Source: Emcibacter sp. SYSU 3D8 (GTDB taxonomy: Bacteria > Pseudomonadota > Alphaproteobacteria > SMXS01). Taken from it: 64,000 bases of DNA. Shown here piece after piece: positions 2,754 to 16,616 of this stretch. The translations under genes were made by a program, and so were the position numbers. The stretch is taken from positions 310,001 through 374,000 of the forward strand of contig NZ_JBBYXK010000001.1 of assembly GCF_039655875.1 (NCBI RefSeq). The letters run 5' to 3'. The notes beneath the pieces were generated by a model. That model did not search any database. It worked only from the letters and a program-made list of their open reading frames with translations, and was not told where the DNA came from. Position 1 is the first letter of the stretch. Each line of letters begins with the position of its first letter.

Positions 2754-3301
2754 ATGCACAGCAAGCCCGTCATTCTTCTCACCGGTTTCGAGCCGTTCGG
2801 CGGTCATCGGATCAATTCGAGCTGGGAGGCAACCCGCATCGCCGGCAAGGCCCTCGGCCCAAATGTCATCGTCGAGCGCCTGCCGGTTCATCACACACGA
2901 GCGGCGCAGACGCTGAAGATGTTGCTGGAGCGGCACCGTCCCGATGCGTGTCTGCTCACCGGATTGGCGCGCGGCCCGCATCTGCGTGTCGAAAGGCTGG
3001 CGCGCCTTCATCGGGCGTTGGCAGGGCCGGCGCTCCGGGACGGCTTCACGGCGCATGGCCCGTGGCCGAGATCGGACTGTCGCTCCGTCTCTCGAAATTG
3101 CCGTACCGCGTATCCGATAATGCCGGTAGCTATGTCTGTAACAGTACTTACTGGTCATTGCTGAACTTCAGCATGAACAACGGCTGGCCCCGATACACAG
3201 CGTTCGTGCATGTGCCGCCGTTGTCCCGGCGATTCACCGCCACCTCGCTGGCGCGGGGATTGCTGGCAATCCTGCGCCGGCGGATGGCGCACATCCCGTG
3301 A
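2754..3301 (+). pseudogene. pcp: Pyroglutamyl-peptidase I (pcp) with frameshift
   Basis: The N-terminal frame from ATG 2754 reads LLTGFEPFGGHRINSSWEA, the signature opening of pyrrolidone-carboxylate peptidase, a cytosolic cysteine peptidase that removes N-terminal pyroglutamate. It continues through LLTGLARGPHLRVERLA. The matching C-terminal half lies in another frame (2333 phase) and includes KLPYRVSDNAGSYVCNSTYW, which holds the family's catalytic Cys, then FVHVPPL. It ends at 3301. The switch occurs near 3040-3060 and needs one base. Joined, the product would be about 180 residues, like the compact branch of the family. The frame break could be a real inactivating indel or an assembly error; the read data are not visible here. 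Confidence 0.75.
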
Positions 3302-3433
3302 GCGCCGGGAACAGGCGTACAAGCCCCGCCAGGGTCGGGAAATGGCGATCACGTAGTTGAGACTCTTCGGAACCAGCAGGATGACGGTCCCGGCGATCAG
3401 GGCGATCAATGGCTGAATGACGATGACGTTCAT
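3234..3433 (-). pseudogene. DUF3096-like small membrane protein, apparently frameshifted
   Basis: From ATG 3433, with GGAGAGA upstream, the frame reads MNVIVIQPLIALIAGTVILL followed by a VPKSLNYVIAI segment. This closely resembles the DUF3096 family of tiny membrane proteins of about 45-60 residues. The expected second hydrophobic half then appears in a neighbouring frame (FPTLAGLVRLFPALTG). A missing base in the short A-run at 3340-3342 would explain this. In the unbroken frame the ORF runs on to 3155 as non-hydrophobic sequence. It overlaps the 3' end of the frameshifted pcp gene on the opposite strand. Function of the family is unknown. Confidence 0.5.
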
Positions 3434-3692
3434 GACAGGTCTCTCCGGCACCGGCGCATGCACAGGAGAACGCTGCAGGACGCCCCGGGTCCGATGCCAT
3501 GCACCGGAGAAGCCGGATGCGCTGCTGCGATATCCGCCAGGTATCACCGCGACGCTCAAGTAACAATCGAGCCACCCTTGAGGATCGAGGAAAACCCGCA
3601 TAGCATCTGTTGGCGGACGGCCCGGTTCGTCAGGCACATGCGCCGCTCTATTCTTCCGCCATCGCGGAATTTGGCCGAGGGGGCCGATGTAA
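3434..3692. other. Intergenic stretch, no supported gene
   Basis: About 260 bases between the small DUF3096-like gene and the DapF-fold gene. Short open frames exist on both strands, but none has recognisable sequence or a good ribosome-binding site. A GAGGGGG at 3677-3683 probably serves the following gene. Confidence 0.4.
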
Positions 3693-3695
3693 TTG

Positions 3696-4514
3696 ATGGC
3701 CATGGTCTCGACATTTCTCACTCATGACAGCGGCAGACCGTTGACCGCCGGGATCATCGCTGACCGGCGCCACACATCCACCCCCGACCCCATGGATATT
3801 CACAGTCTGGCCCAACTCGCCAGACCGGATGCGGATGCGTGTGCCTATGGCAAGCTGGTGATGCTCGACAGGTTCGGTATCTGGACATTTCAGGCAACCT
3901 CAGGCGGCACGGCGGCGCGGGTTTTCTGCGGCAACTCCACTGCGGCGGCGATCGCCAGCCTTGGCGGAAGCGGCATCGTTCGGACAAAGGTGCATGGCGC
4001 CGCGGCGCTCCCCTGTGACGTTGCGGCACAGATCGACGGCGCGGCGGTGTCACAGACCTGGCATGTGCCGGCCACCACGCCGGAAGAACGGTCATGGCAC
4101 GGTCGCCGTGTCGTCCTCGTGCCCGCGCTCAACGATTACGCGCTGGTGTTTGGCGGATTGCCCGCCGGTCTCAGGCCCGAATCCGCCCGACGCGAGTTGC
4201 TGGGCGACGATCCTGCCTGCAAACTCGCTATCATCAGCGGCAGACATGGCGATGCAATCGTCGAATTCCACAATGCCAACGGCCAGCATGGCGGCGCGCC
4301 GCAAACCGGCCTGGCCACCATCGCCCTGGCAGCGCGCTGGGTGCCGTGGCTGGAAGATTGCTTTGCGGACGGTATGCTGTCCTATCCGACCCGGGCGGGA
4401 ATACGCCGGGCCAGGCTGCCATCGACGACGACCGATACCGGCGGCCGGATCGCGGTCGCGATGCCGACCGTGTCTGTGGAACTCAAGCCCCTCATAATGG
4501 AGCAGGTGGCATGA
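3696..4514 (+). CDS. DapF/proline-racemase-fold protein, atypical
   Basis: About 272 residues, resembling the diaminopimelate-epimerase fold. The first half contains PDADACAYG and then FCGNSTAAAI, which matches the DapF 'CGN' helix with a catalytic-type Cys near residue 78. In the second half the expected second-Cys motif (ACGTGA in DapF) is replaced by GGAPQTGLATIALA, so the second catalytic Cys seems to be missing. A one-base isomerase, or a fold-only relative such as the PrpF or PhzF type, is therefore possible. The start is uncertain: TTG 3693, ATG 3696, ATG 3702 or ATG 3792 are all in frame, and only the first ones have a purine-rich GAGGGGG upstream. Its stop overlaps the next start as ATGA, which indicates translational coupling with the ATP-grasp gene. 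It is the first gene of a five-gene block. Confidence 0.65.
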   Translation: MAMVSTFLTHDSGRPLTAGIIADRRHTSTPDPMDIHSLAQLARPDADACAYGKLVMLDRFGIWTFQATSGGTAARVFCGNSTAAAIASLGGSGIVRTKVHGAAALPCDVAAQIDGAAVSQTWHVPATTPEERSWHGRRVVLVPALNDYALVFGGLPAGLRPESARRELLGDDPACKLAIISGRHGDAIVEFHNANGQHGGAPQTGLATIALAARWVPWLEDCFADGMLSYPTRAGIRRARLPSTTTDTGGRIAVAMPTVSVELKPLIMEQVA

Positions 4515-5911
4515 GACCTGATCGGCACCGATTCATCCGCAATATTTTTTCCGGCATGAACGATATCGAAGAATGGCGGCTGGGCGACGCCGCGTTGGCG
4601 GCGGCGAAGGGCTATCCGCGGCACTATTCCGCCGACCTGATCGACGATTATGGAATCATCTTTGCCGACCTTGTGCTCGATTCCGCCACCGGAATGTTGG
4701 CCTGCCATGAAGTGAACGGCCCCAACGCCGTCGGATCAGACGCCTTGACCGGCGACAGCAGTTTGCGGGCAGACAACGAGGCGCGCCAGACGATTCGGCG
4801 CGCCCGCGAACTCGGCTACCTTCGCGCCGACGGCACGTTGACCCGACCCGTGGCCACCGTTCATGCGCACCAGCACTGGAAATTCTTCCGCACCGGGGGC
4901 GAGTTCTATCCCCGCGTGGACCTGTTCGCCGAGACACTGGACCGCATGTTGCCGGGGATCGCCGTATCGACACATGCCGCCACCGACGCCCTGGACGACG
5001 CACCCGTCGCCGTGGTCATGGGCGATGTGCCGTCCATCGCGGCGCATGTGGACATCAATCCGGCCACGCGGCAACTCGAATATCGCGGCCGGCCGTTGAT
5101 CTTCATGGGCAATCCCAACCTGTTGTCCGAGTTGACAAGGATCGGCACATTGCAGCGCGATGACAGGCGGATGGCCGAGGCCGATTTGCGAGTTCTCCAC
5201 GCGTGGCGTCTTGCGGGGACCTTCCACGACAAGTGCCTGCAGCAACGTCTGCTCACCGGCACCGGCATTCGGCCACTGCGTCACTTCTCGGCACAGTCCC
5301 GGGACGAGGCGTTGGCCAAGACCCGTGTCATGCTGGAGCATGGTCCTGTCGTTCTGAAGCCCAGCGACACAAGCGGCGGCACCGGTGTACATGTTGCCGT
5401 GCCCGAGATGGGCGAGGACGCTATCGTCGGCCGCATTGACGCACTGCTGGCGGACTGCCTGGCAAAATACGGCGAGAACACAGAAGCGACCATATTTCCG
5501 ATAGGTGGTTTTGAGTTCGTCCGCTCGACCGGCTATCCCATGGCGGACGGCGACCATCTGTGGGATCTCCGCTTCGCGGTGCTGTTCGAGCCGGGCAGGG
5601 CACAGGCGTTTCCCGTATCGCTCCGCTTCTCACCTCAGCCTTTTGACCCGGGCACCTTCCATCTGAACCGCGACCAGTGGATTTCCAATGTCAGCGGCCG
5701 TCGGGATACGCTGCTGAAGTCGGGCATGGATGACGACGTGCTGCACGCGGTCGGGATGACCGCTGAACGGGTCGAGGAGGCCATGCAGGCCTGCCTCCGC
5801 TGGACGATCAAGGCGTGGGACTGGTCGGCGCGGGATGGCGCTGGCGTGTACGAGGATGCCTGCGAGGAGCGGAGCGATTCGTTTTATCCGGTTGAAAAGT
5901 TTTTGGCATAA
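4511..5911 (+). CDS. ATP-grasp family enzyme
   Basis: A 466-residue protein whose C-terminal part looks like an ATP-grasp ligase, which forms acyl-phosphate intermediates to join a carboxylate to an amine or thiol. Seen: GPVVLKPSDTSGGTGVHV (about 278-295, ATP-binding Lys283 and a glycine-rich loop), DLRFAVLF (352-359), an arginine in LRFS, and SNVSGR (392-397, a metal-type Asn). The N-terminal 200 residues include HAHQHWKFFRTGG and match no family I know. ATG 4511 overlaps the previous stop and has GGAG upstream; a second ATG at 4556 lacks a site. Coupling to the DapF-fold gene suggests they act on related amino-acid-like substrates, which is inference. Confidence 0.75.
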   Translation: MRPDRHRFIRNIFSGMNDIEEWRLGDAALAAAKGYPRHYSADLIDDYGIIFADLVLDSATGMLACHEVNGPNAVGSDALTGDSSLRADNEARQTIRRARELGYLRADGTLTRPVATVHAHQHWKFFRTGGEFYPRVDLFAETLDRMLPGIAVSTHAATDALDDAPVAVVMGDVPSIAAHVDINPATRQLEYRGRPLIFMGNPNLLSELTRIGTLQRDDRRMAEADLRVLHAWRLAGTFHDKCLQQRLLTGTGIRPLRHFSAQSRDEALAKTRVMLEHGPVVLKPSDTSGGTGVHVAVPEMGEDAIVGRIDALLADCLAKYGENTEATIFPIGGFEFVRSTGYPMADGDHLWDLRFAVLFEPGRAQAFPVSLRFSPQPFDPGTFHLNRDQWISNVSGRRDTLLKSGMDDDVLHAVGMTAERVEEAMQACLRWTIKAWDWSARDGAGVYEDACEERSDSFYPVEKFLA

Positions 5912-5917
5912 AGTCGG

Positions 5918-6583
5918 GTGTCTGGCGTCGGCAACCTCGATGAAACATTCAGGAACCTGCTGGTGAACAACCGACTGGACACCCGCTATCCGGTGCTTCC
6001 GGCCATCCTCGAGCGATGGAGCCCCCGTAGTTTCGCCGGTCGCCAACCGGAAGCCCACAAGCTGCAGAGCATGTTCGAGGCTGCAAGGCTGGCGCCCTCG
6101 GCCCATAACACACAACCATCGCGGTTCCTGCTCGGCCGCAAGGGCGGCATGGCGTACGAGAAGCTGTTCACGTGCCTCGACCCTCACAACAGGGAATGGG
6201 CCCATTGCGTGCCGGTGCTGGTACTGGCTTCGGTGATGCGCCGGCGCTTCAGCCAGGTGAAGGCCGACTTCGTGCCTTATCCCCATTGCATGCATGATCT
6301 GGGACTCTCGGTCATGTCGTTCATGCTCCAGGGTCAGCATCTGGGTCTGCATTGCCATCCAATGGCGGCGTTCGATCCTGAGAAGGCCCAACGTGACTTC
6401 GACATCCCGCCATTGTTTGCACCGGGAATCATAATCGCGGTCGGCTACCTGGGCGATCCGGGCGCGCTGCCACCTGACCTGCGCGTCAGGGAGACCGGAC
6501 CGCGTACCCGCCGTCCGCTCGAGGAGATCGTTTTCGAGGAAGCCTGGGGACAATCCTCATCCTTGTTCGCGGGACAGGACTGA
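5918..6583 (+). CDS. Nitroreductase-family flavoprotein
   Basis: About 221 residues, FMN-dependent nitroreductase family. RWSPRSF near residue 34 resembles the FMN-phosphate-binding RxSxR motif, and ARLAPSAHNTQPSRF is the family's second hallmark. The C-terminal GIIIAVGYLGDP matches the family's final beta strand. Members reduce nitro or quinone groups or oxidise azoline rings in natural products; the reaction here is unknown. The start is GTG 5918, six bases after the ATP-grasp stop and with a poor ribosome-binding site. GTG 5963 with AGGAA upstream is an alternative that would remove 15 residues. Its stop overlaps the next start (TGATG). Confidence 0.82.
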   Translation: MSGVGNLDETFRNLLVNNRLDTRYPVLPAILERWSPRSFAGRQPEAHKLQSMFEAARLAPSAHNTQPSRFLLGRKGGMAYEKLFTCLDPHNREWAHCVPVLVLASVMRRRFSQVKADFVPYPHCMHDLGLSVMSFMLQGQHLGLHCHPMAAFDPEKAQRDFDIPPLFAPGIIIAVGYLGDPGALPPDLRVRETGPRTRRPLEEIVFEEAWGQSSSLFAGQD

Positions 6584-8034
6584 TGGACGCCCTGGAACGC
6601 GAATTGAAGGAGCACAGTCGCTGGCGGTTGAAACCTGAATTCGCCAATTTTCGGGCATATGACGAACTCCTGAAAAATGAATTCCTTGCGCCTGCCGAGC
6701 ACCAGATCAGGATGGCGCGGGCCGTACAGGGGATCGTCGCATTTGCAACCGCAGGTACGCCCTATTATGCGTCGCTGTTCAAGCGGCTGGGCCTGACTTG
6801 CAGGCACATCGAGACACCCGAAGATCTTGCGAAGCTACCCACGCTGACCAAACACGATCTGCTCGAGTATTCGAGCCAGATGGCTGCCCCGCGTCTCCCG
6901 CCCGGCGAACAGCTTTACGGTGGCACGAAGTCCTCCGGGACCACGGGACGCCCAGTGTCCGTGCTGCACACATTCAAGAGTTCTGCCATGTTTGGCCTCC
7001 TGCGGCAACGTACGGCCAGGTGGCACGGGCTGCACCCGATGGAAGCCCGCATCGACGTGCGGCCACGGCTGGATTTGCAAGCCACGCGCGAGGGCCTGCA
7101 GATTGGCGATGGTGGATATTCCGTAGCGTCGCAATGGAACCATCTCGGTCTTCACTTCCATACGGGCCCAGAATACGGCATCGCGGTTTCGACGCCCATG
7201 GAACGCCAGGTCGAACTGCTCCAGCAATTGCGCCCAGCCTACGCCACCACCTTTCCCGGTGTCTTCGAGGAATGGCTGCTCGCCAATTCGGGCCAGAAGC
7301 CTGTCGACAGCCTGAAGGCCATTGTCGGGATCGGCTCGCAGCTGACGCCGTCGCTACGCGCCCGGCTGGAGCAATATTATGGCTGCCCTGTGCACATGTC
7401 ATACGGGCTGAACGAGATCGGCAAGGTCGCGACCCGTTGCGCGGCCGGCCGCTATCATGTGAATAGTGAATTATGCCTTGTACAGATCACCCGTGGCGAC
7501 GGCAGTGCGTGCGCGCCGGGCGAGGTGGGCCACATTCTGGTAACCGGTCTCAACAATGTGGCCCAGCCGCTGATCCGATACGATACGGGCGACCTTGCCG
7601 AGGCAATGGACGGACCCTGTCCGTGCGGCCGCACGCTGCCAGTGTTCGGCGATATTGCGGGCCGGTACAGGAGCTATGCGGACCTGCCCTCGGGTTCGCG
7701 CGAGCGGGTCCGCGCCATACGCAACGCCATCGAGCGCCAGGCGCCGGAGGATCTCCGGTTTCTGCGGCGCTACCAGCTTCACCAGGATTTACAGAACCGT
7801 TTTACCCTGAGGCTGCGTATTGTCAGCCCTATTCCCGGCGCCTTCCGCCAGGAGATGCTGCGGGCGTGGGAGCCGGTGATGGGCTCGCCGCCTTCGCCTC
7901 TGGCCATCACCGAGGTCGACGAAATCGCCGCCGCACCGAGCGGCAAGCTCATCGATTTCCTGTCGGATTTTCATACGGATTGGAGCCTGGCGCTTCGGCC
8001 CGGCGCGCCCGCGCCGGCACCATCGGACGCCTGA
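6583..8034 (+). CDS. PaaK-like adenylate-forming enzyme (phenylacetate-CoA ligase family)
   Basis: A 483-residue AMP-binding enzyme related to phenylacetate-CoA ligase and CapK-type proteins; it activates a carboxylic acid as acyl-AMP. The P-loop is KSSGTTGRPVSV (about 116-127), the A5-type motif is MSYGLNEIG, and RYDTGDL holds the ribose-binding Asp. The cysteine pair in GPCPCGR before the hinge is typical of PaaK-like enzymes. The C-terminal EIAAAPSGKLIDFL resembles the catalytic Lys region. Whether the acceptor is CoA, an amine or a carrier is not visible; no carrier protein is encoded nearby. ATG 6583 overlaps the nitroreductase stop by one base. Confidence 0.85.
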   Translation: MDALERELKEHSRWRLKPEFANFRAYDELLKNEFLAPAEHQIRMARAVQGIVAFATAGTPYYASLFKRLGLTCRHIETPEDLAKLPTLTKHDLLEYSSQMAAPRLPPGEQLYGGTKSSGTTGRPVSVLHTFKSSAMFGLLRQRTARWHGLHPMEARIDVRPRLDLQATREGLQIGDGGYSVASQWNHLGLHFHTGPEYGIAVSTPMERQVELLQQLRPAYATTFPGVFEEWLLANSGQKPVDSLKAIVGIGSQLTPSLRARLEQYYGCPVHMSYGLNEIGKVATRCAAGRYHVNSELCLVQITRGDGSACAPGEVGHILVTGLNNVAQPLIRYDTGDLAEAMDGPCPCGRTLPVFGDIAGRYRSYADLPSGSRERVRAIRNAIERQAPEDLRFLRRYQLHQDLQNRFTLRLRIVSPIPGAFRQEMLRAWEPVMGSPPSPLAITEVDEIAAAPSGKLIDFLSDFHTDWSLALRPGAPAPAPSDA

Positions 8035-8052
8035 ACCACGCGGAGACTCACG

Positions 8053-8436
8053 ATGGCCAAGTTGCGGCATATCGCCCTTATTGTTGAAGACCCCGAGGCA
8101 TCTGCCCGGTTCTTCGCCGCCGCATTCGGCATGAAGCGCACGGGCGAGGCCCGCTGCGGCTGTCATATGAGCGACGGGGTCATGACTGTGGCATTGCTGA
8201 AGAAGGAGACACCCGAGGAACGGCTTGGCATCGACCACTTCGGTCTGTGGGTCGATGACCTGGATAGCGCCCGTCAGCAGGCTATCGCGGCAGGAGCGGT
8301 ATCGATGGGGTCATCGCCGCCCGGCGACAAGGCGTTCTACGAAGCCAAGTTCCTGTCGCCCGACGGCATCGTCTTCGACCTGTCCCATACGGGCTGGCCC
8401 GGCGCCGCCAAGATGGCGGGGCCTGACGGCGACTGA
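8053..8436 (+). CDS. VOC-family (glyoxalase/dioxygenase-fold) protein
   Basis: A 127-residue single vicinal-oxygen-chelate protein with the beta-alpha-beta-beta-beta pattern. Candidate metal ligands are His in LRHIALIVED near the start, His in GIDHFGLWVDD near residue 60, and an acidic residue in the AKFLSPDGIVFDL strand. Members isomerise, cleave or sequester small molecules, and several confer self-resistance. It begins 18 bases after the ligase gene with GGAG upstream, so it probably belongs to the same transcript as the preceding four genes. Its role in the cluster (tailoring step or protection) is inference. Confidence 0.82.
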   Translation: MAKLRHIALIVEDPEASARFFAAAFGMKRTGEARCGCHMSDGVMTVALLKKETPEERLGIDHFGLWVDDLDSARQQAIAAGAVSMGSSPPGDKAFYEAKFLSPDGIVFDLSHTGWPGAAKMAGPDGD

Positions 8437-8470
8437 ATCTGCAGCCGGGCCGGATAGCCCTATGGAAGTG

Positions 8471-8593
8471 CTACCGACTCCAGAGGAAGAAGCAGAGATT
8501 CAGAAAACCGAGAGCGACGGCGAACAGGGATATTCCGATCGCCAGGTTTACCCGCTTTGCTGACGGGTCGTCGGGCGGTGTGAGTAACGGCAT
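8471..8593 (-). CDS. 40-residue single-pass membrane peptide
   Basis: A short ORF, MPLLTPPDDPSAKRVNL followed by a hydrophobic segment from about residue 17 to 37 and a C-terminal SR. A strong purine-rich site (GGAGGGAG) lies about 9 bases before ATG 8593. The hydrophilic proline-rich N-terminus followed by one transmembrane helix suggests an inner-membrane peptide. No family is recognised. It is convergent with the VOC gene and upstream of the cupin gene on the same strand. Confidence 0.5.
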   Translation of the reverse strand: MPLLTPPDDPSAKRVNLAIGISLFAVALGFLNLCFFLWSR

Positions 8594-8754
8594 ATGATCA
8601 TTCTCCCTCCATGGAATCGTGCCCCCAAAAGACCGATCCATGACACGAAACTATGACATGACGAGGAAGAGTTTGCCTACTCAAACAAGGCCGTGACGCG
8701 TCGCACGGGGCGAACCGGCCGGGCTGCTCGACGTGGCAGTGGCGGGTTCCAGCC

Positions 8755-9582
8755 TCACGACCGGATCAGATCGTATTTTCCCTCGGTGCGGATGTAGAAG
8801 ACGCAGTCCCGCTCCGCCTTGCAGGTAATCCGGCGGCCCCGGTCGTCAGCGGCGCCGAAATAACTGCCGGGCACCAGGTCCGCCGACCTGTCCTGGCCCG
8901 GAATATCAAGCGTGACTTCACCGCGGATCGTCACGGCGTGAATCTGGGCGCCGTTTCCGCGCAGTTCTCCTCGGAAGCCGGCCGGGAGCTTCAGGAAGGT
9001 CCCGTTCATCTCGTTCGCCGCAGTGCCGCCCCAAAGGAACGCCATTTGCGGTCCTTCGTCCTGCTGTATCCATGTCACATCGGAGGCCTCAAGCCAGACG
9101 ATGTTGCCAGACTCCAGATTGATGGAGTGCTCGTCACTTTCGAAGGCCTCCTCTGATGGCTGAACCAGATACGGGCCTTGGAGAATCTCCAGGAAGATCG
9201 ACGCGCCGGTCTCGGCCGCGGCTGAGGTGACGTGGTCTTTGCCCGCGGGCTGCGTCCAGAACGACCCTGGACCCATCCACATGTTCGCGGCATCGGGATC
9301 GTCATTGTGCACGGCTCCCTCGATCACGACGGCACGGTAGGTAATGTTGTGGATGTGCGGCGGCGACGAAAAGCCTGCTCCGAATTCAATGATCGCGCCG
9401 GTCGGCACGTCGTCTCGGAGATCGCCCCACAGTACGCCCGCCTGCGGGCTGGCGTTTCCGCGAGCCGGGTTAAGCGGCTGGAACGAAACATCGGGGCGCA
9501 GCACCACATCGGTTTTGGCGTCTGCAGTGCCACCCGCAACCACGACGCATGCCAGGCCAAGGATGAGCGCGGATCGGATCAT
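8755..9582 (-). CDS. Secreted DUF4437 cupin protein
   Basis: A 275-residue protein with a cleavable signal peptide (hydrophobic segment about 5-18, cleavage near ADA at 20-22). The body matches DUF4437, a bicupin family: GFSSPPHIHNITYR (His76 and His78), GSFWTQPAGKDHVTSA (His117) and a second cupin half with GTFLKLPAGFRGEL. The first cupin keeps the histidines expected for a metal; the second has fewer. It is likely periplasmic. The ribosome-binding site AGGAAAG lies about 6 bases before ATG 9582. Molecular function of the family is not established. Confidence 0.85.
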   Translation of the reverse strand: MIRSALILGLACVVVAGGTADAKTDVVLRPDVSFQPLNPARGNASPQAGVLWGDLRDDVPTGAIIEFGAGFSSPPHIHNITYRAVVIEGAVHNDDPDAANMWMGPGSFWTQPAGKDHVTSAAAETGASIFLEILQGPYLVQPSEEAFESDEHSINLESGNIVWLEASDVTWIQQDEGPQMAFLWGGTAANEMNGTFLKLPAGFRGELRGNGAQIHAVTIRGEVTLDIPGQDRSADLVPGSYFGAADDRGRRITCKAERDCVFYIRTEGKYDLIRS

Positions 9583-9743
9583 GGGACTTTCCTACCAGTT
9601 GCATTGACGGTCGCACCAGCCAACGTTCGGGCGCGCTCTCGCGCGGGGAACCGGCGAGGTGGCCGGTCGCATCATCCAGACGTCCGATACTCGAGCGCTT
9701 GCCTTCCGCCAAGAACCGCAGCCTAGGTCCGCACAGGTGGCAA

Positions 9744-9758
9744 ATGGCGGATGGGGTG
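9744..9758. repeat. Distal attachment-site repeat (att)
   Basis: A 15-base sequence (atggcggatggggtg) identical to 16602-16616, which covers the 3' end of the tRNA-Ser gene. It lies just outside the island's AT-rich left end and is the expected duplicated core of a tRNA-targeting integrase. Confidence 0.85.
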
Positions 9759-10102
9759 TCCGTAGAACCATGCCTATCAATCCATTGAATTATATAAATA
9801 TATTATATTAGGATTTGCCTTGTCCCCACATCTGTCCCCACATTGCGTACCGATGCAGGCTTAGAACGAGTGGATCTCAAGCAATGCATGGCGGCGCCAG
9901 AATTGGGAAAAATTTTCATGCGTGGCGCTGAATCGATACTTCCATTTCCTGCAGGAAGGTGCCCCCGGGTGGGCGTAGGTCTATGCCACGGGTCCCCTCC
10001 AGCGAATTTCTAGGTTCTTCAACCCCTCAATCACCTGCGGATGGCTGACGCGCACCGCCTTTCCAGTGGTAGCGAATTGCGACCGTTTCGTTTCGCACCG
10101 GA
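9759..10102. other. Left end of island, non-coding
   Basis: A 344-base stretch without a supported gene. It includes an AT-rich run (9788-9811), the arm-type repeat at 9822-9843, and a ccacgggtcccctc segment near 9985 that recurs near 12333. Confidence 0.5.
9822..9843 (+). repeat. Candidate integrase arm-type repeat, left
   Basis: A 22-base sequence containing two copies of gtccccaca (11-base period). It matches 16469-16490 with a single mismatch, in the same orientation. It begins 64 bases inside the left att core. The position and pairing are what arm-type integrase sites would show; this is inference. Confidence 0.6.
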
Positions 10103-10762
10103 TCAACGCTGGCGACCGTTGCCACCGATGCCTGCCGCCTTCATGTGCCCGCCCAGCACCTCTAACTGCTGCATCATATTGACTGTTACAGCCGCATCGA
10201 GCCGTTCGAATTTGTCCAGATGCCTGTCATAGGTTCGTTGCCACATGCCTTTGGGGCGCGGCAATCCCCTATCCCAACCGGGTTCGCCGCCTAGCTTCTG
10301 TTGCAGCTTGAACAGCTTCGCCAGTGTTCTGTCACTGCTGGAAACGCGTTGCGAGCGATAGCCCAGCCCCCAGGCTTCGCGGCTGAGGAACTTGTCGCCT
10401 CCAGGGGGCAGGTGCAGTTTCAGCACTCGCTTATTGGTCTGTGGACAGAGCATCCACCAGCGTCGCCCGCCGTAGTTCGGCCGGGTGCAGGTGAGGGAAA
10501 TGCGTTGTTTTACTGAGCGCGGTTCGCTCCCATAGGGAGTGCAGGTGAACCGCAGTTCCATCCACGGATAGTCCGGTTCCCACATGCCGTAGGAGTACCC
10601 GATGGAGCTTGTCTGTTGGCCGTTGGTCGACCAGGTAATGGTGCCCGAACCACCCCCGCCGTCCTGTATCCAGCCGCGCCGCATCATCATGGGCAGGCTG
10701 AGGGTTAGCCCGCTCTCAATCGTCGGCCTGCCCCCGCGTCGGCCTGAGTTCCACCCACCCAT
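10103..10762 (-). CDS. Island protein with degenerate zinc-ribbon-like region
   Basis: A 219-residue protein beginning MGGWNSGRRGGRPTIESG, a start I associate with an unnamed family found on alphaproteobacterial islands. The middle contains CTRPNYGGRRWWMLCP and then FLSREAWGLGYRSQR. In relatives as I recall them, this second part reads like FACRHCYGLTYRSQ, giving a Cys4 ribbon; here the second Cys pair is lost. GAGGG lies 4 bases before ATG 10762, and a TATAAT at 10790-10785 could be its -10 element. Function unknown; DNA binding is a guess. Confidence 0.6.
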   Translation of the reverse strand: MGGWNSGRRGGRPTIESGLTLSLPMMMRRGWIQDGGGGSGTITWSTNGQQTSSIGYSYGMWEPDYPWMELRFTCTPYGSEPRSVKQRISLTCTRPNYGGRRWWMLCPQTNKRVLKLHLPPGGDKFLSREAWGLGYRSQRVSSSDRTLAKLFKLQQKLGGEPGWDRGLPRPKGMWQRTYDRHLDKFERLDAAVTVNMMQQLEVLGGHMKAAGIGGNGRQR

Positions 10763-10851
10763 TGCGCCCTCGGATTTTCCTAAAATTATAGTGAATTGAC
10801 TTGTGTTGGCCTTCAGGCCCAGATTGATTTTATGATACGATACAAGATGTC

Positions 10852-11556
10852 ATGAAGCCTTCGCTTGTCGGCTATTGTTTTTTTTGCTGCACGGTCCTTC
10901 TAGGCGTTTCATCGGTTCATGCTGCGTCCGACACGGCGAGCAGCGAAGACAAATGGCAACCTCCCAGTTACCCTAGCTCGTCAATCCTTCTCGAAAACCA
11001 AGGTGCGTCGCCTAGACTCCTATCGGTCTTGGAACGATATCAGGTTCTGAAGGGGCAAAATTTCGACGGATTTCCCCTATACGCCATCGAGAGTTGGCAA
11101 TACGCCATCACACAAGGCGAGAATATGAAATCGGTGTCGCAGCTCGTTTCTCTCAACGCCAGCATCAATCAGGTGCCTTACCGATCTCGAAGCAACAGGA
11201 TAGATGACCTACAGTGGCCCACCCCGCTGGAGTTCATCACTTCTGGAGGTGAATGCATTGGCTATGCCATCGCCAAATTCCTCGCGCTGAGGGAGAGCGG
11301 GTGGCTTAGAAGCACAACGCTGATTGTTGTCGGACGCTTGCTCGACGATACCCCTCATGCCGTTGTGGTCGTGAGGAGCCTGCAAGATTCCGAATGGTTC
11401 CAGTTGGACAATCGCACTGATGCAATTGTTCCAACCCGGCATGTTAACAATTTCATCCCGTTCTTCGCCCTCTCCGACACCTTCATCTGGATTTACAAGC
11501 ACGACGAATCTAAGAGCCCAGCCCCGTCATTAGATCGCGGGGGCGGCCATGAATAA
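10852..11556 (+). CDS. Transglutaminase-like cysteine peptidase (BTLCP, LapG-like)
   Basis: A 234-residue secreted protein with a signal peptide (hydrophobic 7-22, cleavage near VHA-AS). It has the bacterial transglutaminase-like cysteine proteinase signature: QWPTPLEF, then GGECIGYAIAK with catalytic Cys135, PHAVVVVRS with His169, and QLDNRTDAIV with Asp186. In LapG proteins the Cys motif is GDCEDYA; here it is GECIGYA, so the acidic residues used for calcium binding are altered. LapG cleaves surface adhesins under c-di-GMP control. The 8-base overlap with the next gene, an HD-GYP protein, supports a functional pair. No adhesin or LapD-type receptor lies in this window. Confidence 0.82.
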   Translation: MKPSLVGYCFFCCTVLLGVSSVHAASDTASSEDKWQPPSYPSSSILLENQGASPRLLSVLERYQVLKGQNFDGFPLYAIESWQYAITQGENMKSVSQLVSLNASINQVPYRSRSNRIDDLQWPTPLEFITSGGECIGYAIAKFLALRESGWLRSTTLIVVGRLLDDTPHAVVVVRSLQDSEWFQLDNRTDAIVPTRHVNNFIPFFALSDTFIWIYKHDESKSPAPSLDRGGGHE

Positions 11557-12160
11557 AGTTGCCACGAGTGTTCACAACTGCCTAATCGCGCTTGAGGAGA
11601 TGCGTTCCGCCACGTTGCGGAACCACGACGCCGGTGTAGCCGCCATATGCGCCGCCCTGTGCCGGGGAATGGGAATTCAATCAGGTCTTGCGGTTAAGCT
11701 ATCATTCGCCGCAGGCATGCATGATATCGGGAAGGTCGTCATCCCGGACGCCATAATTAACAAACCCGCGCCGCTCAACACCACAGAACAGAAGGTGATG
11801 CGGCGGCATCCGATGATGGGTTTCAATATTCTTCGTAATTTCGGAGATGATGCCCTCAAACTGGCGGCGAATGCTGCACTTTACCACCACGAATGCTGGG
11901 ACGGTTCGGGCTACCCGACGAGACTTTCGGGAACGGCGATTCCGCTGGAGGCGCGCATCGTCGCAATCTGTGACGTCTACCATGCCTTGCGGGAGCCACG
12001 GTCATATCGCGCTGCGCTATCTCATGATGATGTGATGGGCATGATCTTGGGCGGTGACGGTTCTGACCGCCTTCATCCGGGAAAGTTCGACCCGGCGGTA
12101 CTGGATAGTTTCCGTGCGAGCGCCCACGGCATCCAAGACGCTTTTGAGTCCACGCTCTGA
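11549..12160 (+). CDS. Stand-alone HD-GYP domain phosphodiesterase
   Basis: A 203-residue cytoplasmic HD-GYP protein with no sensor or receiver domain. Motif residues are His26, HDIGK (58-62), His87 in RRHPMMG, HHECWDGSGYP (113-123) and DVYHAL (142-147). All metal ligands expected for c-di-GMP hydrolysis are present. Its start lies within the last codons of the peptidase gene, so the two are translationally coupled. Such enzymes convert c-di-GMP to pGpG or GMP. Together the pair could link c-di-GMP depletion to processing of a periplasmic or surface target; this is inference. Confidence 0.88.
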   Translation: MNKVATSVHNCLIALEEMRSATLRNHDAGVAAICAALCRGMGIQSGLAVKLSFAAGMHDIGKVVIPDAIINKPAPLNTTEQKVMRRHPMMGFNILRNFGDDALKLAANAALYHHECWDGSGYPTRLSGTAIPLEARIVAICDVYHALREPRSYRAALSHDDVMGMILGGDGSDRLHPGKFDPAVLDSFRASAHGIQDAFESTL

Positions 12161-12370
12161 AAATCAGCGGCGAGCGTAGTTAGGGGTGGCGCGGAGCCCC
12201 ACCGGCTGGACACTCTGGCCATGTGCCTGCCTTTGTGGTTGAAAATTGGTGAGTATTACCTGCAAGCCAATTGGCCAAGGCTGCAGCGTACTATCGAGGG
12301 TATCCCCCGGATACTTGCAGCAGCCCCACGGGTCCCCTCTCAACATTCAATTCCCTCCAGTCAATCGCCG

Positions 12371-12661
12371 CGCCGCCTCCCCAATATTCTTAGACGTGCC
12401 ACATCACTTCCCGATGATGCTGCCACCTGGTTCTGGCTTATCCAGTCCCAGCGCCGCTGCGGAGTTCCCTGGCACGCCTTTCAGGATGTGCTTCCCACAA
12501 ATTCGTCAGATGTGTCTCTGTAGCAGCATGAGCTGGTGTTGACGTACCGCAATACGCGTCGCATAGGTTGTTCCAGCCTTGTTTGGTTTGCCAGGGACAC
12601 GCTTCAACCAACGCCGCCGCATCGGGTCAAGGCGAACATCTGGTGAAAGGTATACGAGGTT
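12371..12661 (-). pseudogene. Decayed fragment of HUH Rep-like gene (copy A)
   Basis: On the minus strand this stretch translates to pieces collinear with the intact Rep-like protein at 13463: DPMRRRWLKRVPGKPNKAGT aligns with its RMQRRWLRNITGRPYAAGT, and ILKGVPGNSAAALGLDKPEP aligns with ILKGVSADSAAALGLDKLEP. Two in-frame stops interrupt it, one after LLQRHI and one after SIIGK, and the N-terminal half with the HUH motif is gone. It is a non-functional relic of a second rep gene. Confidence 0.75.
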
Positions 12662-12850
12662 TCAGGCCAACCAGGCCGACAGCACTGCAATCAGCCATAT
12701 GGCGCCCAAGCTCACGAGGGCTATCAATACGAGGCTCCGTGGCTGCCGCCGGCTCGGCATCAAGACATAGACGCCGAGAACAGTGGGACGTGGATGGAAT
12801 TGCCGACGCCTCAAACTTCTTGCCGCGTCACTTGTTTTCAACTGGCGCAT
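12662..12850 (-). CDS. Small membrane protein, 62 residues, hypothetical
   Basis: Starts at ATG 12850 with GGGAGG eight bases upstream, the best-placed ribosome-binding site in this non-coding part of the island. The N-terminal half is basic (SLRRRQFHPRP). The C-terminal half is one strongly hydrophobic segment, LVLIALVSLGAIWLIAVLSA. That layout suits a single-pass membrane peptide, such as a toxin- or lysis-like peptide, but no family is recognised. The stop codon directly abuts the decayed Rep fragment. Chance coding cannot be excluded. Confidence 0.4.
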   Translation of the reverse strand: MRQLKTSDAARSLRRRQFHPRPTVLGVYVLMPSRRQPRSLVLIALVSLGAIWLIAVLSAWLA

Positions 12851-12964
12851 CGGATTTGCCTCCCAATTGCACGAACAACTGTGCCCTTGGAATTGTTCCG
12901 AGTCCGTGACGGTGAATAATCATTCACCGCTGCAGCGCCCTGCTCAAGGCACCCACTTTGCTCA

Positions 12965-13050
12965 TAGCGGCTCCACCTGCCCGTCAGGGTGGCGGATTAG
13001 AGCCGCTACAAAAGGCGACGCCCTCCATGAGGGGGCTCGCGGAGGGCGTC
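12965..13050. repeat. Two tandem hairpins
   Basis: Hairpin 1 pairs tagcggctc (12965-12973) with gagccgcta (13000-13008), with a smaller ccacc/ggtgg stem inside. Hairpin 2 pairs gacgccctcc (13017-13026) with ggagggcgtc (13041-13050). Both are perfect. No T-tract follows, so they do not look like simple terminators. A structured RNA or a nick-site/origin element are both possible. Confidence 0.6.
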
Positions 13051-13183
13051 GAGGCTTGAAGGTGAGGGGGTGAGCCAAACCTTCTATATCACCGTTCGCC
13101 TAAAACATTTCGGCATGCAAACAGAAACCATTCACTGATGACTGTATCACACGAATGTGATGGTTTTCAGGGTGTCACCTACA

Positions 13184-13249
13184 TCAATGCTTCCGTGCCT
13201 CCTCCCCAATGTTCTCAGAGGCGCCGCACCGTTTCCCCACGATACGCTG
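13184..13249 (-). pseudogene. C-terminal relic of HUH Rep-like gene (copy B)
   Basis: The minus strand reads QRIVGKRCGASENIGEEAR and ends KH-stop. It aligns with GRIVGKRVATSQNIGPTAR at the end of the intact protein at 13463. Only about 21 codons remain, with the stop codon. It is a third copy of the same C-terminus in tandem. Confidence 0.65.
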
Positions 13250-13320
13250 CTAGGCAATCCCCTACCGGATTTGCTCTGAGGCGGATATTTTACATCACCC
13301 GCTGTGTTAATCTGCCATTC

Positions 13321-13440
13321 ACATTTGGCGGCTTAAACAGTGTGCATTCGACGACACCCCTCCCGTCGAGTACACCGTTCAGATTGAGCGGCAGAGACAG
13401 TGTTCACTCGACGGTCCCCTCCCGCCGAATGGATGACAGC
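13321..13440. repeat. 60-bp imperfect tandem duplication with inverted repeats
   Basis: Units 13321-13380 and 13381-13440 align at a period of 60, sharing for example acagtgt and the tcgacg-cccctccc core. Each unit has a short palindrome: tcgacg paired with cgtcga in unit 1, and tcgacgg with ccgccga (one mismatch) in unit 2. It lies just downstream of the Rep-like gene. Confidence 0.55.
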
Positions 13441-13462
13441 AGCAAACTTTGGGCCGTGAGCG

Positions 13463-14188
13463 TTAGCTTGCGGCCCATTGTTTTTGTGCAACCAGCCTCG
13501 CTGTAGGTCCGATATTCTGAGATGTTGCAACTCGCTTGCCGACGATGCGTCCGCCCGGTTCCAGCTTATCCAGCCCCAGCGCCGCTGCAGAGTCCGCTGA
13601 GACGCCTTTCAGGATGTAGGCTACTGCTTCCCCCAAATTGACCAGATAAGCATCAGTGACCGCCTGAGCCACCGCCAACGCGCCGCCGATACTCTTGGTC
13701 CTGATAGTGCCTGCTGCATAGGGCCGCCCGGTGATGTTCCGAAGCCAGCGCCGCTGCATCCTGACCAGCGGGTAGTCTGCAGGGATGTGAACCAGGATGT
13801 GAACATGGCTGCCTTTGCCGGCGCCGTTCTCGCGCGCCCATGCCCAGGCAATGCGCCCACCCTGTTTTGCCACACAGTCGCCCATTAATTTGAGATAGCG
13901 GCCCGTTGCCCATGCCGCCCGTCTATCCGGGATACCCGTCGTCTCCCAGTGAATGGTGATGTGCCGGTTAAAGGGCAGGCCAACCCTGATGGCGTGCCGC
14001 GCCGCCTCGATGATGTTGGTGGCCTGTTTCAGCGTCAGGGCATGACTTACACGGTCGCCTCGGTTGCGAGCGCCGCCCCATGTCTGGCGGGCAGGGGAGG
14101 GAGATGGCACCCCACCTAAGGTCTTAGTATAAATAGCAAGGTCCGTGCCAGTTTCGGTGACTGGCGGATTGCCGCCACTTCCGGGCAC
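13463..14188 (-). CDS. HUH-type replication/relaxase-like protein
   Basis: The conserved body begins around SHALTLKQATNIIEAARHAI and includes GSHVHILVHIP, a His-hydrophobic-His (HUH) motif flanked by hydrophobic residues. Such proteins use a Tyr to nick single-stranded DNA in rolling-circle replication or transfer. Candidate Tyr residues occur in GRPYAAG, DAYLVNL and AYILKG. The start is uncertain: the frame opens to 14350, but that overlaps another gene and a terminator. GTG 14188 or GTG 14110 are more likely, and neither has a convincing ribosome-binding site. Two relics of the same protein lie downstream. Confidence 0.65.
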   Translation of the reverse strand: MPGSGGNPPVTETGTDLAIYTKTLGGVPSPSPARQTWGGARNRGDRVSHALTLKQATNIIEAARHAIRVGLPFNRHITIHWETTGIPDRRAAWATGRYLKLMGDCVAKQGGRIAWAWARENGAGKGSHVHILVHIPADYPLVRMQRRWLRNITGRPYAAGTIRTKSIGGALAVAQAVTDAYLVNLGEAVAYILKGVSADSAAALGLDKLEPGGRIVGKRVATSQNIGPTARLVAQKQWAAS

Positions 14189-14246
14189 AGCGCGTGAGCG
14201 GGAAAACGCCAAATTGCGCCCCCTTTCGCAAGTTTCAAGATTGCGG

Positions 14247-14283
14247 AATAAAAAGGGGGAGCGACCGTTTCCAGCCGCTCCCC
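14247..14283 (-). terminator. Intrinsic terminator after PC4-like gene
   Basis: In RNA sense (minus strand) GGGGAGCG pairs with CGCUCCCC, extended by an inner GCUG/CGGU stem capped by a GAAA tetraloop, and is followed by CUUUUUAUU. It begins nine bases after the stop codon at 14292 and closes the three-gene regulatory operon. Confidence 0.85.
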
Positions 14284-14291
14284 GATTGCAG

Positions 14292-14528
14292 TTAGGGCGT
14301 GCCTTCCGCCTCGCTGGCGCCGTCCCCGGATAACCAGCTTGCCACGCCATCCATCAGGTCAGGCAATCGCTCCAGCGGGATAGTGCAGCCCTCCCGCGTC
14401 GGCTTGAAGGCTTCGCCGTCCCAGTACCACTTTCGCCAGTTCAGGAACGTGTGGCCATTGTGCGTAGCGACTTCGAGGCGCCACACGTTGCCGCGATGGC
14501 TATGCTCGAACAGAACCACGCCGCTCAT
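14292..14528 (-). CDS. PC4-like (transcriptional coactivator p15) small protein
   Basis: 78 residues. The pattern WRLEVATHNGHTFLNWRKWY, then DGEAFKPTREG and a C-terminal helix resembles the PC4/p15 fold, in which a curved sheet binds single-stranded DNA. Bacterial relatives occur in phages and islands. ATG 14528 overlaps the stop of the upstream gene as ATGA. A single-strand-binding role alongside the HUH protein would be coherent, but this is inference. Confidence 0.55.
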   Translation of the reverse strand: MSGVVLFEHSHRGNVWRLEVATHNGHTFLNWRKWYWDGEAFKPTREGCTIPLERLPDLMDGVASWLSGDGASEAEGTP

Positions 14529-14926
14529 GGCGAATGCTCCAGGATCGAGACAGGCGAGCGCAGCACATATCGACCGTGCCAGCCTCCGTCATGCGGTTCA
14601 TGCACCATGTCGATGGCAAGGCCGTACTCACGCCGCAGCGTGTGAACATAGGCACCCAGGCGATAGGCCCAGGTGGCTACCTCCATTGCAGTGACACCTT
14701 TCGAGCCAACCGCCGTAAGCGCCAGCAGCGCCTTGGCAACCTGGCCAGTGACGATAAACGTCGAGCCATTCGCGATTGCCGTGACCGCTGCCCGCTTTTT
14801 GCGGGTAGCAATCAGGGCCGAAGGTGTGTCAACATTCGGTGTCGATGAGGGAGCTTCATTCTCGACGACGGTATACGCCCCTGGCACTGTTGGCGCAGTG
14901 CTGGGGGTACTTATGTTTGGAGGCAT
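14525..14926 (-). CDS. Winged-helix domain protein
   Basis: 133 residues. A low-complexity Pro/Thr/Ser N-terminal part is followed by GSKGVTAMEVATWAYRLGAY, a predicted recognition helix region, then HDGGWHGRYVL, which fits the C-terminal wing of HTH_39-type winged-helix proteins. A strong GGAGGTG sits before ATG 14926; an in-frame upstream start at 14968 would overlap the excisionase gene and is rejected. It lies in a three-gene operon with the HTH and PC4-like genes. Probably a DNA-binding regulator of the element. Confidence 0.65.
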   Translation of the reverse strand: MPPNISTPSTAPTVPGAYTVVENEAPSSTPNVDTPSALIATRKKRAAVTAIANGSTFIVTGQVAKALLALTAVGSKGVTAMEVATWAYRLGAYVHTLRREYGLAIDMVHEPHDGGWHGRYVLRSPVSILEHSP

Positions 14927-14927
14927 G

Positions 14928-15098
14928 TCACACCTCCAGATTTTCAGCAAAGGCCTTAACACTCTCAATGCGTATCAGCCGTCGCCGTCCAATGGAGACG
15001 GTTTCAAGTTGGCCGGCAGCAATGAGCTCATAGGTTTTAGACCTGCCGAGACCCAAGGCCTTTGCCGCCTCACTAATCGAACACAGGATTGGTTGCAA
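14928..15098 (-). CDS. AlpA/excisionase-like helix-turn-helix protein
   Basis: 56 residues with a MerR/HTH_17-type motif: SISEAAKALGLGRSKTYELI, then GRRRLIRIESVKAFAE. Starts at TTG 15098, chosen because GGAGGA lies six to seven bases upstream; the ATG further upstream (15152) has no such site. These small proteins act as excisionases or integrase regulators. Its stop is one base from the winged-helix start. Placement next to the integrase supports an excisionase role. Confidence 0.75.
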   Translation of the reverse strand: MQPILCSISEAAKALGLGRSKTYELIAAGQLETVSIGRRRLIRIESVKAFAENLEV

Positions 15099-15163
15099 AA
15101 TTATTCCTCCGTGCTGTTGCTGACATCCGTGGCGAAATTTGGGGTCAACCACGGACCACCATA

Positions 15164-15192
15164 ATAATGTGCGGACAGCGGAAAGACGCCAA
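15164..15192 (-). promoter_or_regulatory. Candidate sigma-70 promoter for the excisionase operon
   Basis: On the minus strand TTGGCG (15192-15187) is followed after exactly 17 bases by CATTAT (15169-15164), about 65 bases before the TTG start at 15098. It is a sequence match only. Confidence 0.35.
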
Positions 15193-15271
15193 AAATTGTG
15201 GTGCTTGGCCTTTTTTTGTTCTCCAATATCTAGTATCGCGGCTTAAGCTAGAGCGGGGCGTCCCCACTCGG

Positions 15272-16453
15272 CTACCTTGTGACCGTCAACGGCAAGACAT
15301 TCACCGGCGCGCCAGTGCTGAATCGCCCCCAAGCCTCCATCATCGACCGCCGCTTCTCTAAAAATTCAGTGCGCCGATATGCGGCCTCAACCTTGTTCGG
15401 AATGGCATGGGCGAGCGCGGCCTCTGCCACTTCACCGGGAAAGCTGGTTTCCTCTGCCGCCCAATCACGGAACGCGGAGCGGAAGCCGTGAACCGTGAAT
15501 GGCAACTCCATATCCCGAAGCACCTTCAACAGCGTCATGTCCGATAGCGGTCGCCCCGGCTTCTGCCCATAGAACACGAGTTCGCTACCCTTGAGGCGGA
15601 GGGCAGCCGCGCGCTTGAATACCTCTACAGTGGCCGGGGACAGGGGAACGGTGTGGGCCTTTCCCGCCTTCATTCGTTTACCTGGGATGGTCCACAAGGC
15701 AGTGTCCAGGTCGATCTCGTCCCATGTCGCACCGCGTATCTCGCCCGAGCGCGCAGCCGTCAGAATCAGCGCCTCCAGCGCCAGCCGCCCCATGCTGTCA
15801 CGCTCGCGCAGTTTCTCCAGAAAGTCAGGAACGTCTGAATAGGGCATGGCCTCGAACCGGCCAGTCTTTCGCGGTTGGCGCGGCAAACCCTTGGTGACCG
15901 AGCGCATGGGCGCTTCCTGCGTACGCCAGCCCTTGGAATAGGCATAGTCCAGCACCGCGCCGATACGCTGGCGCACCCGCCGCGCCGTTTCCGGCTTCTC
16001 CAGCCATATGTTGGCCAGTACATCCCGAACCATGCGGCCCTCGATAGCCTCAACGCTCATGTCGCCTATGGCCGGGAAGGCGTAGGTTTCGAGGGTCGCC
16101 AGCCATTGGGCCTGATGCTTCCCGTTCTTCCAGCCGCGTTTGTGTTCCTTGTGAACGGCTTTTGCAGCCTCCCGGAATGTGGGGACACGCTCGCGCTGCT
16201 TCTGCTTCTCCGCCACCGGGTCCGCGCCCTGGCGAACCTGTTTGCGAATCTCGCCCGCCTTTTCCCGAGCATCGGCCAGCGAAACGTCTTTCAGCGAGCC
16301 CAGGCCAAACTCTCGCCGCTTTCCGTCATGCTGAATCCGAAGAAGCCAACTCTTTGAGCCGCCGTCCTTCACGTTCAACATCAAGCCGTCGCCATCGGAA
16401 TAGCGGCCTGGCTCTTTCAGCGCCCGAACCTGAGTGGCATTCAGGTTTCCCAT
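15272..16453 (-). CDS. Tyrosine-type site-specific integrase
   Basis: A 393-residue P4-type phage integrase. The N-terminal arm-binding domain has the typical YSDGDGLMLNV and LRIQHDGKRREFGLG; the C-terminal catalytic domain holds Arg in TAARSGEIRG, Lys in GKRMKAGKAHTVPLS, HGFRSAFRDW, His in ALAHAIPNKVE and the Tyr nucleophile in AAYRRTE. The ATG at 16453 has GAGG seven bases upstream; a GTG three bases earlier is in frame. It faces away from the tRNA-Ser gene, 150 bases from it, and presumably recombines within that gene's 3' end. Confidence 0.95.
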   Translation of the reverse strand: MGNLNATQVRALKEPGRYSDGDGLMLNVKDGGSKSWLLRIQHDGKRREFGLGSLKDVSLADAREKAGEIRKQVRQGADPVAEKQKQRERVPTFREAAKAVHKEHKRGWKNGKHQAQWLATLETYAFPAIGDMSVEAIEGRMVRDVLANIWLEKPETARRVRQRIGAVLDYAYSKGWRTQEAPMRSVTKGLPRQPRKTGRFEAMPYSDVPDFLEKLRERDSMGRLALEALILTAARSGEIRGATWDEIDLDTALWTIPGKRMKAGKAHTVPLSPATVEVFKRAAALRLKGSELVFYGQKPGRPLSDMTLLKVLRDMELPFTVHGFRSAFRDWAAEETSFPGEVAEAALAHAIPNKVEAAYRRTEFLEKRRSMMEAWGRFSTGAPVNVLPLTVTR

Positions 16454-16468
16454 CACCCAACCTCATTC

Positions 16469-16490
16469 GTCCCCACACCTGTCCCCACAT
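16469..16490 (+). repeat. Candidate integrase arm-type repeat, right
   Basis: Matches 9822-9843 at 21 of 22 bases, again with two gtccccaca units. It lies between the integrase start and the tRNA att core, 111 bases from the latter. In an excised circle the two repeats would flank the joined core in the same orientation. Confidence 0.6.
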
Positions 16491-16601
16491 AGTTGGGTGG
16501 TTGGAGGTGAATGTCAACGGACGCTGACGCATCTTAATGTGCCTAAAGACCGCTGTTTAACTGGGTTTAGTGGATAGTGGTGGATGCCAGAAAATAGGTT
16601 T

Positions 16602-16616
16602 ATGGCGGATGGGGTG
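16602..16616. repeat. tRNA-proximal attachment-site repeat (att)
   Basis: Identical to 9744-9758. It covers the CCA end and the 3' acceptor strand of tRNA-Ser, so integration leaves the tRNA gene intact. Confidence 0.85.

Follow-up and report, generated by a model that had tools for sequence, protein, structure and literature searches.

A five-gene accessory block in one alphaproteobacterial genus that may direct the synthesis of a small amide-containing metabolite

Near the start of a 64,000-nucleotide stretch of the genome of Emcibacter sp. SYSU 3D8 (contig NZ_JBBYXK010000001.1, positions 310,001 to 374,000 of the forward strand, in the following termed the window) lies a compact block of five genes whose composition raises the question of what such an operon might do. 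A preliminary description, made from the sequence alone, had named the products as a DapF-fold protein, an ATP-grasp enzyme, a nitroreductase, a PaaK-like protein and a protein of the vicinal oxygen chelate (VOC) superfamily. It could name no known operon of this composition, and in agreement with this we found neither a paper describing this gene set in the open-licence literature, screened by title and abstract start, nor an assignment of the five genes to a described pathway in that literature. The reading we favour, with our confidence evenly divided, is an accessory operon for a small specialised metabolite with an amide (peptide-like) bond. It is built on the conservation of the block within its genus and on the likely families of its five products.

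The own genome (G000) comprises 4.07 Mb in 17 contigs, with the window on contig 1. In G002, a genome of the same genus, genes 1 to 5 are present in identical order with protein identities (tblastn) of 67, 84, 89, 76, and 88%, respectively. Two further genomes contain part of the block, namely G001 with genes 1 to 3 in order up to a contig end, and G004 with gene 1 and 182 residues of gene 2 near a contig end, so that a check of gene order across genomes, as proposed earlier, found it kept in full in one relative and in part in two. The ratios of non-synonymous to synonymous substitution rates (dN/dS) between the window and G002 were 0.33, 0.11, 0.12, 0.16, and 0.10 for genes 1 to 5 (NG86), and those between the window and the locus L017 were 0.24 and 0.12 for genes 1 and 2. 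YN00 returned a value in one of seven comparisons, for gene 3 alone (0.04). The five genes are under purifying selection and, because of the shared order in G002 and the low dN/dS, are conserved genes that travel together.

The open reading frame listing confirmed the close junctions of the genes (Table 1): genes 1 and 2 overlap by ATGA at 4511, genes 2 and 3 are separated by a 6-base gap, genes 3 and 4 meet in TGATG at 6583, and gene 5 follows gene 4 after 18 bases. The five genes themselves were thus as described before, and only the assumed start of gene 1 at ATG 3696 was not retained. Gene 1 probably starts three bases upstream at TTG 3693, since the G002 locus (L016) has TTG at the matching position and ACG opposite the ATG, and since L016 and L017 align with the protein from the TTG start onwards. 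Three promoter-like sites were predicted, all on the minus strand (1.5 in shuffled sequences), and two terminator-like sites (3.7 in shuffled sequences).

Table 1. Genes of the block, with positions in the window.
Gene	Position	Strand	Predicted product	Pfam
1	3693..4514	+	PrpF/DapF-fold isomerase-like protein, 273 aa, TTG start	
2	4511..5911	+	probable ATP-grasp ligase, 466 aa	
3	5918..6583	+	nitroreductase-superfamily flavoenzyme, 221 aa	PF00881
4	6583..8034	+	PaaK-like adenylate-forming enzyme, 483 aa	PF00501
5	8053..8436	+	VOC/glyoxalase-superfamily protein, 127 aa	PF00903

To judge from the sequence searches, genes 1, 2, and 4 have their close relatives in a single genus only within the samples covered. 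Gene 2 was detected in 4 of 60 genomes including its own, all of them among the seven genomes of the genus, and in 3 of 385 genomes of the class, again all from the genus. The only hits in 398 genomes of the phylum were the own genome and G536, the latter with a 71-residue match (E 6e-4). A short-pattern scan of genome contigs returned three gene 2 loci from 195 stretches, apparently from the same metagenome-assembled genomes as G001, G002, and G004. Gene 1 was found in 3 of 289 genomes of the class, namely its own, G004, and G045, where the match is partial (residues 170-259, E 3e-4) and has a stop inside; plasmids gave no match. At E 1e-60, gene 4 matched one of 378 genomes of the phylum, its own. 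PaaK-like proteins other than gene 4 (27-35% identity) occur in all seven genomes of the genus, and 65 plasmid records contain matches to gene 4, all below 60% identity and the best-ranked one at 29%. Gene 3 has ordinary relatives in other genera with up to 42% identity; at E 1e-30 it matched 19 of 367 genomes, of which two belong to the genus. The upstream flank of the block is present in G003 (100% complete, two contigs), which lacks genes 1 and 2, and in G006 (84% completeness), in which gene 2 had no match. Because gene 2 occurs in four of the seven genomes of the genus and G003 and G006 have the flank but not the block, the block is, as far as these samples indicate, an accessory element of one genus.

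Outside the genus, one distant homologue of gene 2 (31% identity over residues 114-439) was found on plasmid pRJH2 of Rhodococcus pyridinivorans in an unrelated gene setting. Its neighbours encode a metallo-hydrolase, a phosphoribosyltransferase and a HAD-like protein and, on the other strand, a nucleotidyltransferase and a PPDK_N protein; the other block genes are not there. This homologue had no match in phages and none in other plasmids, and the gene 2 profile matched none of 81 candidate stretches of viral contigs. The pRJH2 cluster (L010, 54-9137) is little annotated, also contains a DHH gene, and may represent another nucleotide- or peptide-type pathway. The block's proteins were compared with 32 loci containing homologues of genes 2, 3, or 4 or weak matches, most of them with about 1.5 kb on each side, and none of those from outside the genus had a second block gene at E 1e-6.

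The gene 1 protein had no match in Pfam or NCBIfam, and the PrpF family model PF04303 matched none of the three gene 1 proteins up to E 10. A model was predicted with AlphaFold2 from three sequences; the gene 1 reading of G004 (L018) was left out of the alignment (A4) and of the model because of one in-frame stop. The five models had predicted local distance difference test (pLDDT) scores of 83.3, 81.5, 80.9, 52.7, and 45.2, and the best had a predicted template modelling score of 0.84. All 31 Foldseek matches of this model at E 0.001 or better belonged to the DapF/PhzF/PrpF superfamily, by which a DapF/PrpF-superfamily fold is supported. By VIA, ranks one to eight, with Z 18.1-21.0 over 253-258 residues, went to PrpF, LigU, methylitaconate isomerase, and a putative isomerase, and DapF, O-ureidoserine racemase, and hydroxyproline epimerases followed with Z 16.9 and less. 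PrpF was ranked ninth by Foldseek E-value, yet had the highest TM-score by query length (0.64). The PrpF-type matches share 12-15% identity with gene 1, and sequence comparison gave no support: with a hidden Markov model of six PrpF proteins gene 1 scored -2.0 to 2.0 bits (shuffled sequences up to 7.8), and hhalign against six PrpF proteins aligned a stretch off the motifs (E 0.026).

K54 and C79 are invariant in the three gene 1 sequences and were placed by eye opposite the PrpF motif; C79-G-N and a T-G pair near the C-terminal helix likewise line up by eye with fetched PrpF proteins. A Lys and a Cys are the catalytic residues of PrpF/LigU isomerases, and the PDB titles among the VIA matches include the LigU mutants K66M and C100S. 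DapF has two catalytic cysteines, each in its own motif. Gene 1 has one C-G-N motif, with APQTG standing by eye near the place of the second DapF Cys motif, and its remaining invariant cysteines are C50 and C176. From the predicted structure, we read gene 1 as probably a short PrpF-like isomerase, less probably a racemase. An assignment as DapF proper was considered and is not preferred, with the second Cys motif unseen by eye and VIA favouring PrpF, whereas the Foldseek E-values favour racemases. Of the earlier DapF-fold label, the superfamily fold is thus borne out by the model, Foldseek, and VIA, and DapF itself gives way to PrpF and LigU, which are nearer by VIA.

For gene 2, all sub-threshold ATP-grasp matches fall on one stretch at about residues 235-309. 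They comprise NAGGN synthetase (E 0.003 for the window protein and 0.11 for L016), cyanophycin synthetase (E 0.04-0.11), ATPgrasp_ST (0.10-0.16), and DUF3182 (0.06-0.14), which we take to be ATP-grasp-like; wHTH-PRTase_assc (window protein) and SUKH-3 (L017) are further sub-threshold matches. A lid-like motif, VLKPSDTSGGTGV, is located at residues 281-293, D-x-R at 352-354, SN at 392-393, and E-x-N at 67-69, ahead of the lid. The lid motif KP..TSGGTGV and the near-N-terminal E-x-N are kept in the Rhodococcus plasmid homologue. In ordinary ATP-grasp enzymes the E-x-N motif ends the domain; eukaryotic-type glutathione synthetase is a circularly permuted ATP-grasp with E-x-N ahead of the lid. The motif order of gene 2 therefore hints at a similar circular permutation, which is suggestive only. 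In the predicted structure, about residues 84-214, except 121-133, are folded, and the fold comparison was confined to VIA rows covering about residues 82-215. Here the top four rows, with Z 5.7-6.2, comprised two (homo)glutathione synthetases and a pair of nematode proteins with the same fold, and eukaryotic-type glutathione synthetases or effectors sharing this fold made up 7 of 50 rows; residues 82-215 aligned with residues 152-287 of human glutathione synthetase with Z 6.2 over 97 residues. Foldseek gave no match to the gene 2 model at E 0.001, sequence comparison gave no significant match to a solved structure, and hhalign against 6 of 14 CP_ATPgrasp_2 loci gave no support (E 0.8). The sub-threshold matches and the VIA rows lend weak to moderate support to gene 2 as an ATP-grasp ligase, whose type may be that of eukaryotic glutathione synthetase, and the earlier ATP-grasp label is kept to this extent, family cut-offs not being reached. 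Gene 2 as the housekeeping glutathione synthetase was rejected, as a full match to PF02955 (bacterial glutathione synthetase) is present elsewhere in 10 of 10 genomes, own counted; for the same reason the job of gene 2 is probably other than glutathione synthesis.

Genes 3, 4, and 5 passed the Pfam cut-offs of PF00881 (nitroreductase, 55.6 bits, cut-off 23.5), PF00501 (AMP-binding, 38.6 bits, cut-off 29.9), and PF00903 (VOC, 41.2 bits, cut-off 20.6), respectively, so that their previous naming was broadly upheld. Gene 4 shows SSGTTG (117-122), YGLNE (274-278), RYDTGD (332-337), and K455 near the C-terminus, which we take to be the adenylation motifs and the C-terminal lysine. With 56.1 bits it stays below TIGR02155 (PaaK phenylacetate-CoA ligase equivalog, cut-off 646.3), and by its sequence it is classed as PaaK-like only, not as PaaK. 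In gene 5, H6, H62, and D109 are possible metal ligands by eye. The best NCBIfam match of gene 3 was malonic semialdehyde reductase (E 6e-11, 42 bits, cut-off 152). Gene 5 had weak matches to methylmalonyl-CoA epimerase (E 0.001) and to Fos-family proteins and lactoylglutathione lyase (E 0.0035-0.1), and, although described earlier as a possible resistance protein, scored far under all NCBIfam Fos cut-offs listed (best 17.5 bits, cut-off 250). Because every one of these matches falls well short of its cut-off among the named NCBIfam models, exact substrates of genes 3 to 5 cannot be read from them.

In the favoured operon for an amide-containing metabolite, gene 4 would convert a carboxylic acid to an acyl-adenylate, possibly passing it on to coenzyme A (CoA), an amide, or an ester. 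Gene 1 would shift a double bond in a carboxylate or epimerise it, gene 2 would ligate a carboxylate and an amine at the expense of ATP, gene 3 would oxidise or reduce the product with the aid of flavin mononucleotide, and gene 5 might act in a late step or in self-protection. We infer every reaction, the step order, and the product, and we prefer small-molecule assembly to breakdown because two likely acid activators, a flavoenzyme, and an isomerase occur in one coupled unit. The two carboxylate-activating enzymes of the preliminary description thus become one assigned by PF00501 (gene 4) and one likely from its sub-threshold matches (gene 2). The metabolite part of the pathway proposed there is retained, whereas its amino-acid origin finds no clear support, as VIA puts gene 1 nearer to PrpF and LigU even though Foldseek E-values put racemases first.

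The same gene 1 model also fits a different function. PrpF, LigU, and methylitaconate isomerase, the closest VIA neighbours, are enzymes of breakdown pathways. LigU acts as a tautomerase in aromatic breakdown, according to an excerpt of PMC12314914. The block could then be an operon that degrades or salvages an unsaturated or aromatic acid, with gene 4 forming the CoA thioester, gene 1 acting as a LigU/PrpF-type tautomerase, gene 3 reducing a semialdehyde or enone, and gene 5 serving as lyase, epimerase, or dioxygenase, in line with the malonic semialdehyde reductase and methylmalonyl-CoA epimerase matches of genes 3 and 5. Such an operon would leave a second ATP-dependent ligase unexplained, if gene 2 is one, and none of the five was recognised as a thiolase, a hydratase, a classical ring-opening enzyme, or an uptake gene; we consider it unlikely. 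The glutathione-synthetase likeness of the folded part of gene 2, together with the Fos-family and lactoylglutathione-lyase matches of gene 5, would agree with thiol or peptide conjugation, in which gene 2 makes a glutathione-like tripeptide or an analogue that is used by the VOC protein in the manner of glyoxalase I or FosA. We hold this to be very unlikely, given how far under their cut-offs the gene 5 matches lie and that all 10 genomes already have a bacterial glutathione-synthetase match; moreover, no dipeptide-making partner was recognised among the five genes, and genes 1, 3, and 4 would be left with no clear role.

Several observations weigh against an operon for an amide-containing metabolite. 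The open reading frames and Pfam matches of the five genes include no carrier protein, non-ribosomal peptide synthetase (NRPS) or polyketide synthase (PKS), transporter, or regulator, and outside the genus no relative was found that keeps the gene order. The first three Foldseek ranks of gene 1 by E-value are a histidine racemase (3e-10), an O-ureidoserine racemase (7e-10), and a DapF (9e-10). Gene 2 reaches no Pfam or NCBIfam family cut-off, and its whole-length model is unreliable (pLDDT 41.6). The fifth VIA row of its folded part is an unrelated chain with Z 5.6, and values near 6 can arise by chance. The Rhodococcus homologue has no NCBIfam match, and its best Pfam match is Hjc (E 0.005, residues 28-88, below cut-off), with ATPgrasp_ST weaker at E 0.15. 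When gene 2 sequences were permuted and compared with Pfam (four permuted sequences and three of the four shuffled controls, the L017 shuffle being left out), there was no gain over the controls, and matches lay within the lid part with none across the join. The permuted and shuffled forms gave 0.051 and 0.056 for the window, 0.083 and 0.087 for L016, and 0.083 and none for Rhodococcus (native form 0.15).

The G004 copy has a stop inside gene 1, and its gene 2 reading departs from the relatives near residue 186, wherefore the function of the block seems dispensable in that genome. These lesions, the broken frame of the flanking pyroglutamyl-peptidase gene in the window, and the end of the DNA match with G002 about 225 bases past gene 5, beyond which the downstream flanks differ, would also be expected of an accessory island in decay, with genes that have ceased to make up a functioning pathway in this strain. 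As the window and G002 both have all five reading frames open, dN/dS is 0.10-0.33, and the expected motifs are in place, we regard decay as highly improbable.

A bolder version of the metabolite operon is that gene 2 founds a new bacterial family of circularly permuted ATP-grasp ligases, with a distant member on an actinobacterial plasmid, and together with the short PrpF-like isomerase makes a new class of peptide-like metabolites from an unsaturated carboxylate, confined to one genus, which we think unlikely. If the metabolite operon itself is right, genes 1 and 2 would represent two enzyme families unrecognised by Pfam and NCBIfam, in a pathway that genome miners keyed to class-defining genes of the NRPS/PKS type would probably miss. 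As the five genes span less than 5 kb, the whole set could be cloned into a laboratory host to look for its product directly.

Upstream of the block, the pyroglutamyl-peptidase gene (PF01470) with the broken reading frame is located at 2754-3301 on the plus strand of the window. Longer open readings of it lie beside the same SDR gene in G003 (L049, 3379-3948), G006 (L050, 3195-3827), and G004 (L051, 3143-3733). Between the peptidase gene and gene 1, G002 (L016, about 7790-9020) and G004 (L051, about 1680-2910) have two genes, of which one is rubrerythrin-like, with the Pfam label given in G002 alone, and the other is small and presumably of the SYLF/YSC84 type; in the window, the interval 3301-3693 is too short for both. 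Downstream, the region 8755-16692 contains genes for a DUF4437 cupin, a Peptidase_C93 protein, and an HD-domain protein as well as a tRNA-Ser gene (16603-16692) and may be an island edge. The G+C content is 0.588-0.589 at 8001-16000 and 0.627-0.658 elsewhere in the window.

Among known systems, the D-cycloserine genes pair O-ureidoserine racemase with an ATP-grasp enzyme. This cluster resembles the block in having a DapF-type racemase and an ATP-grasp gene, but is not known to contain nitroreductase, PaaK-like, or VOC genes. The hvr operon for pantaphos in Pantoea ananatis includes genes for ATP-grasp proteins and is suspected to yield peptidic derivatives, and the reference list of that paper includes work on PrpF (PMC7858074); it is a phosphonate pathway, and the excerpt of the paper names no PaaK-like, VOC, or nitroreductase genes. 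Graspetide loci bring ATP-grasp genes together with SagB-like genes of the nitroreductase superfamily (PMC8939145), but the enzymes modify a ribosomal precursor peptide, and PrpF, PaaK, and VOC genes are not named in the excerpt of that source. At the level of single genes, DapF, histidine racemase, and O-ureidoserine racemase have the superfamily fold in common with gene 1, with VIA Z-scores lower than that of PrpF. Eukaryotic-type glutathione synthetase has neither a significant Pfam nor a solved-structure sequence match from gene 2, whose whole-length model is of little use here, but shows by eye the same order of E-x-N, alpha/beta domain, and glycine-rich lid. PrpF, LigU, and methylitaconate isomerase resemble gene 1 in the predicted fold and, by eye, in the Lys, the Cys-Gly-Asn, and the T-G pair, although enzymes of the PrpF/LigU type, with about 350-390 aa, are longer than the 273 aa of gene 1.

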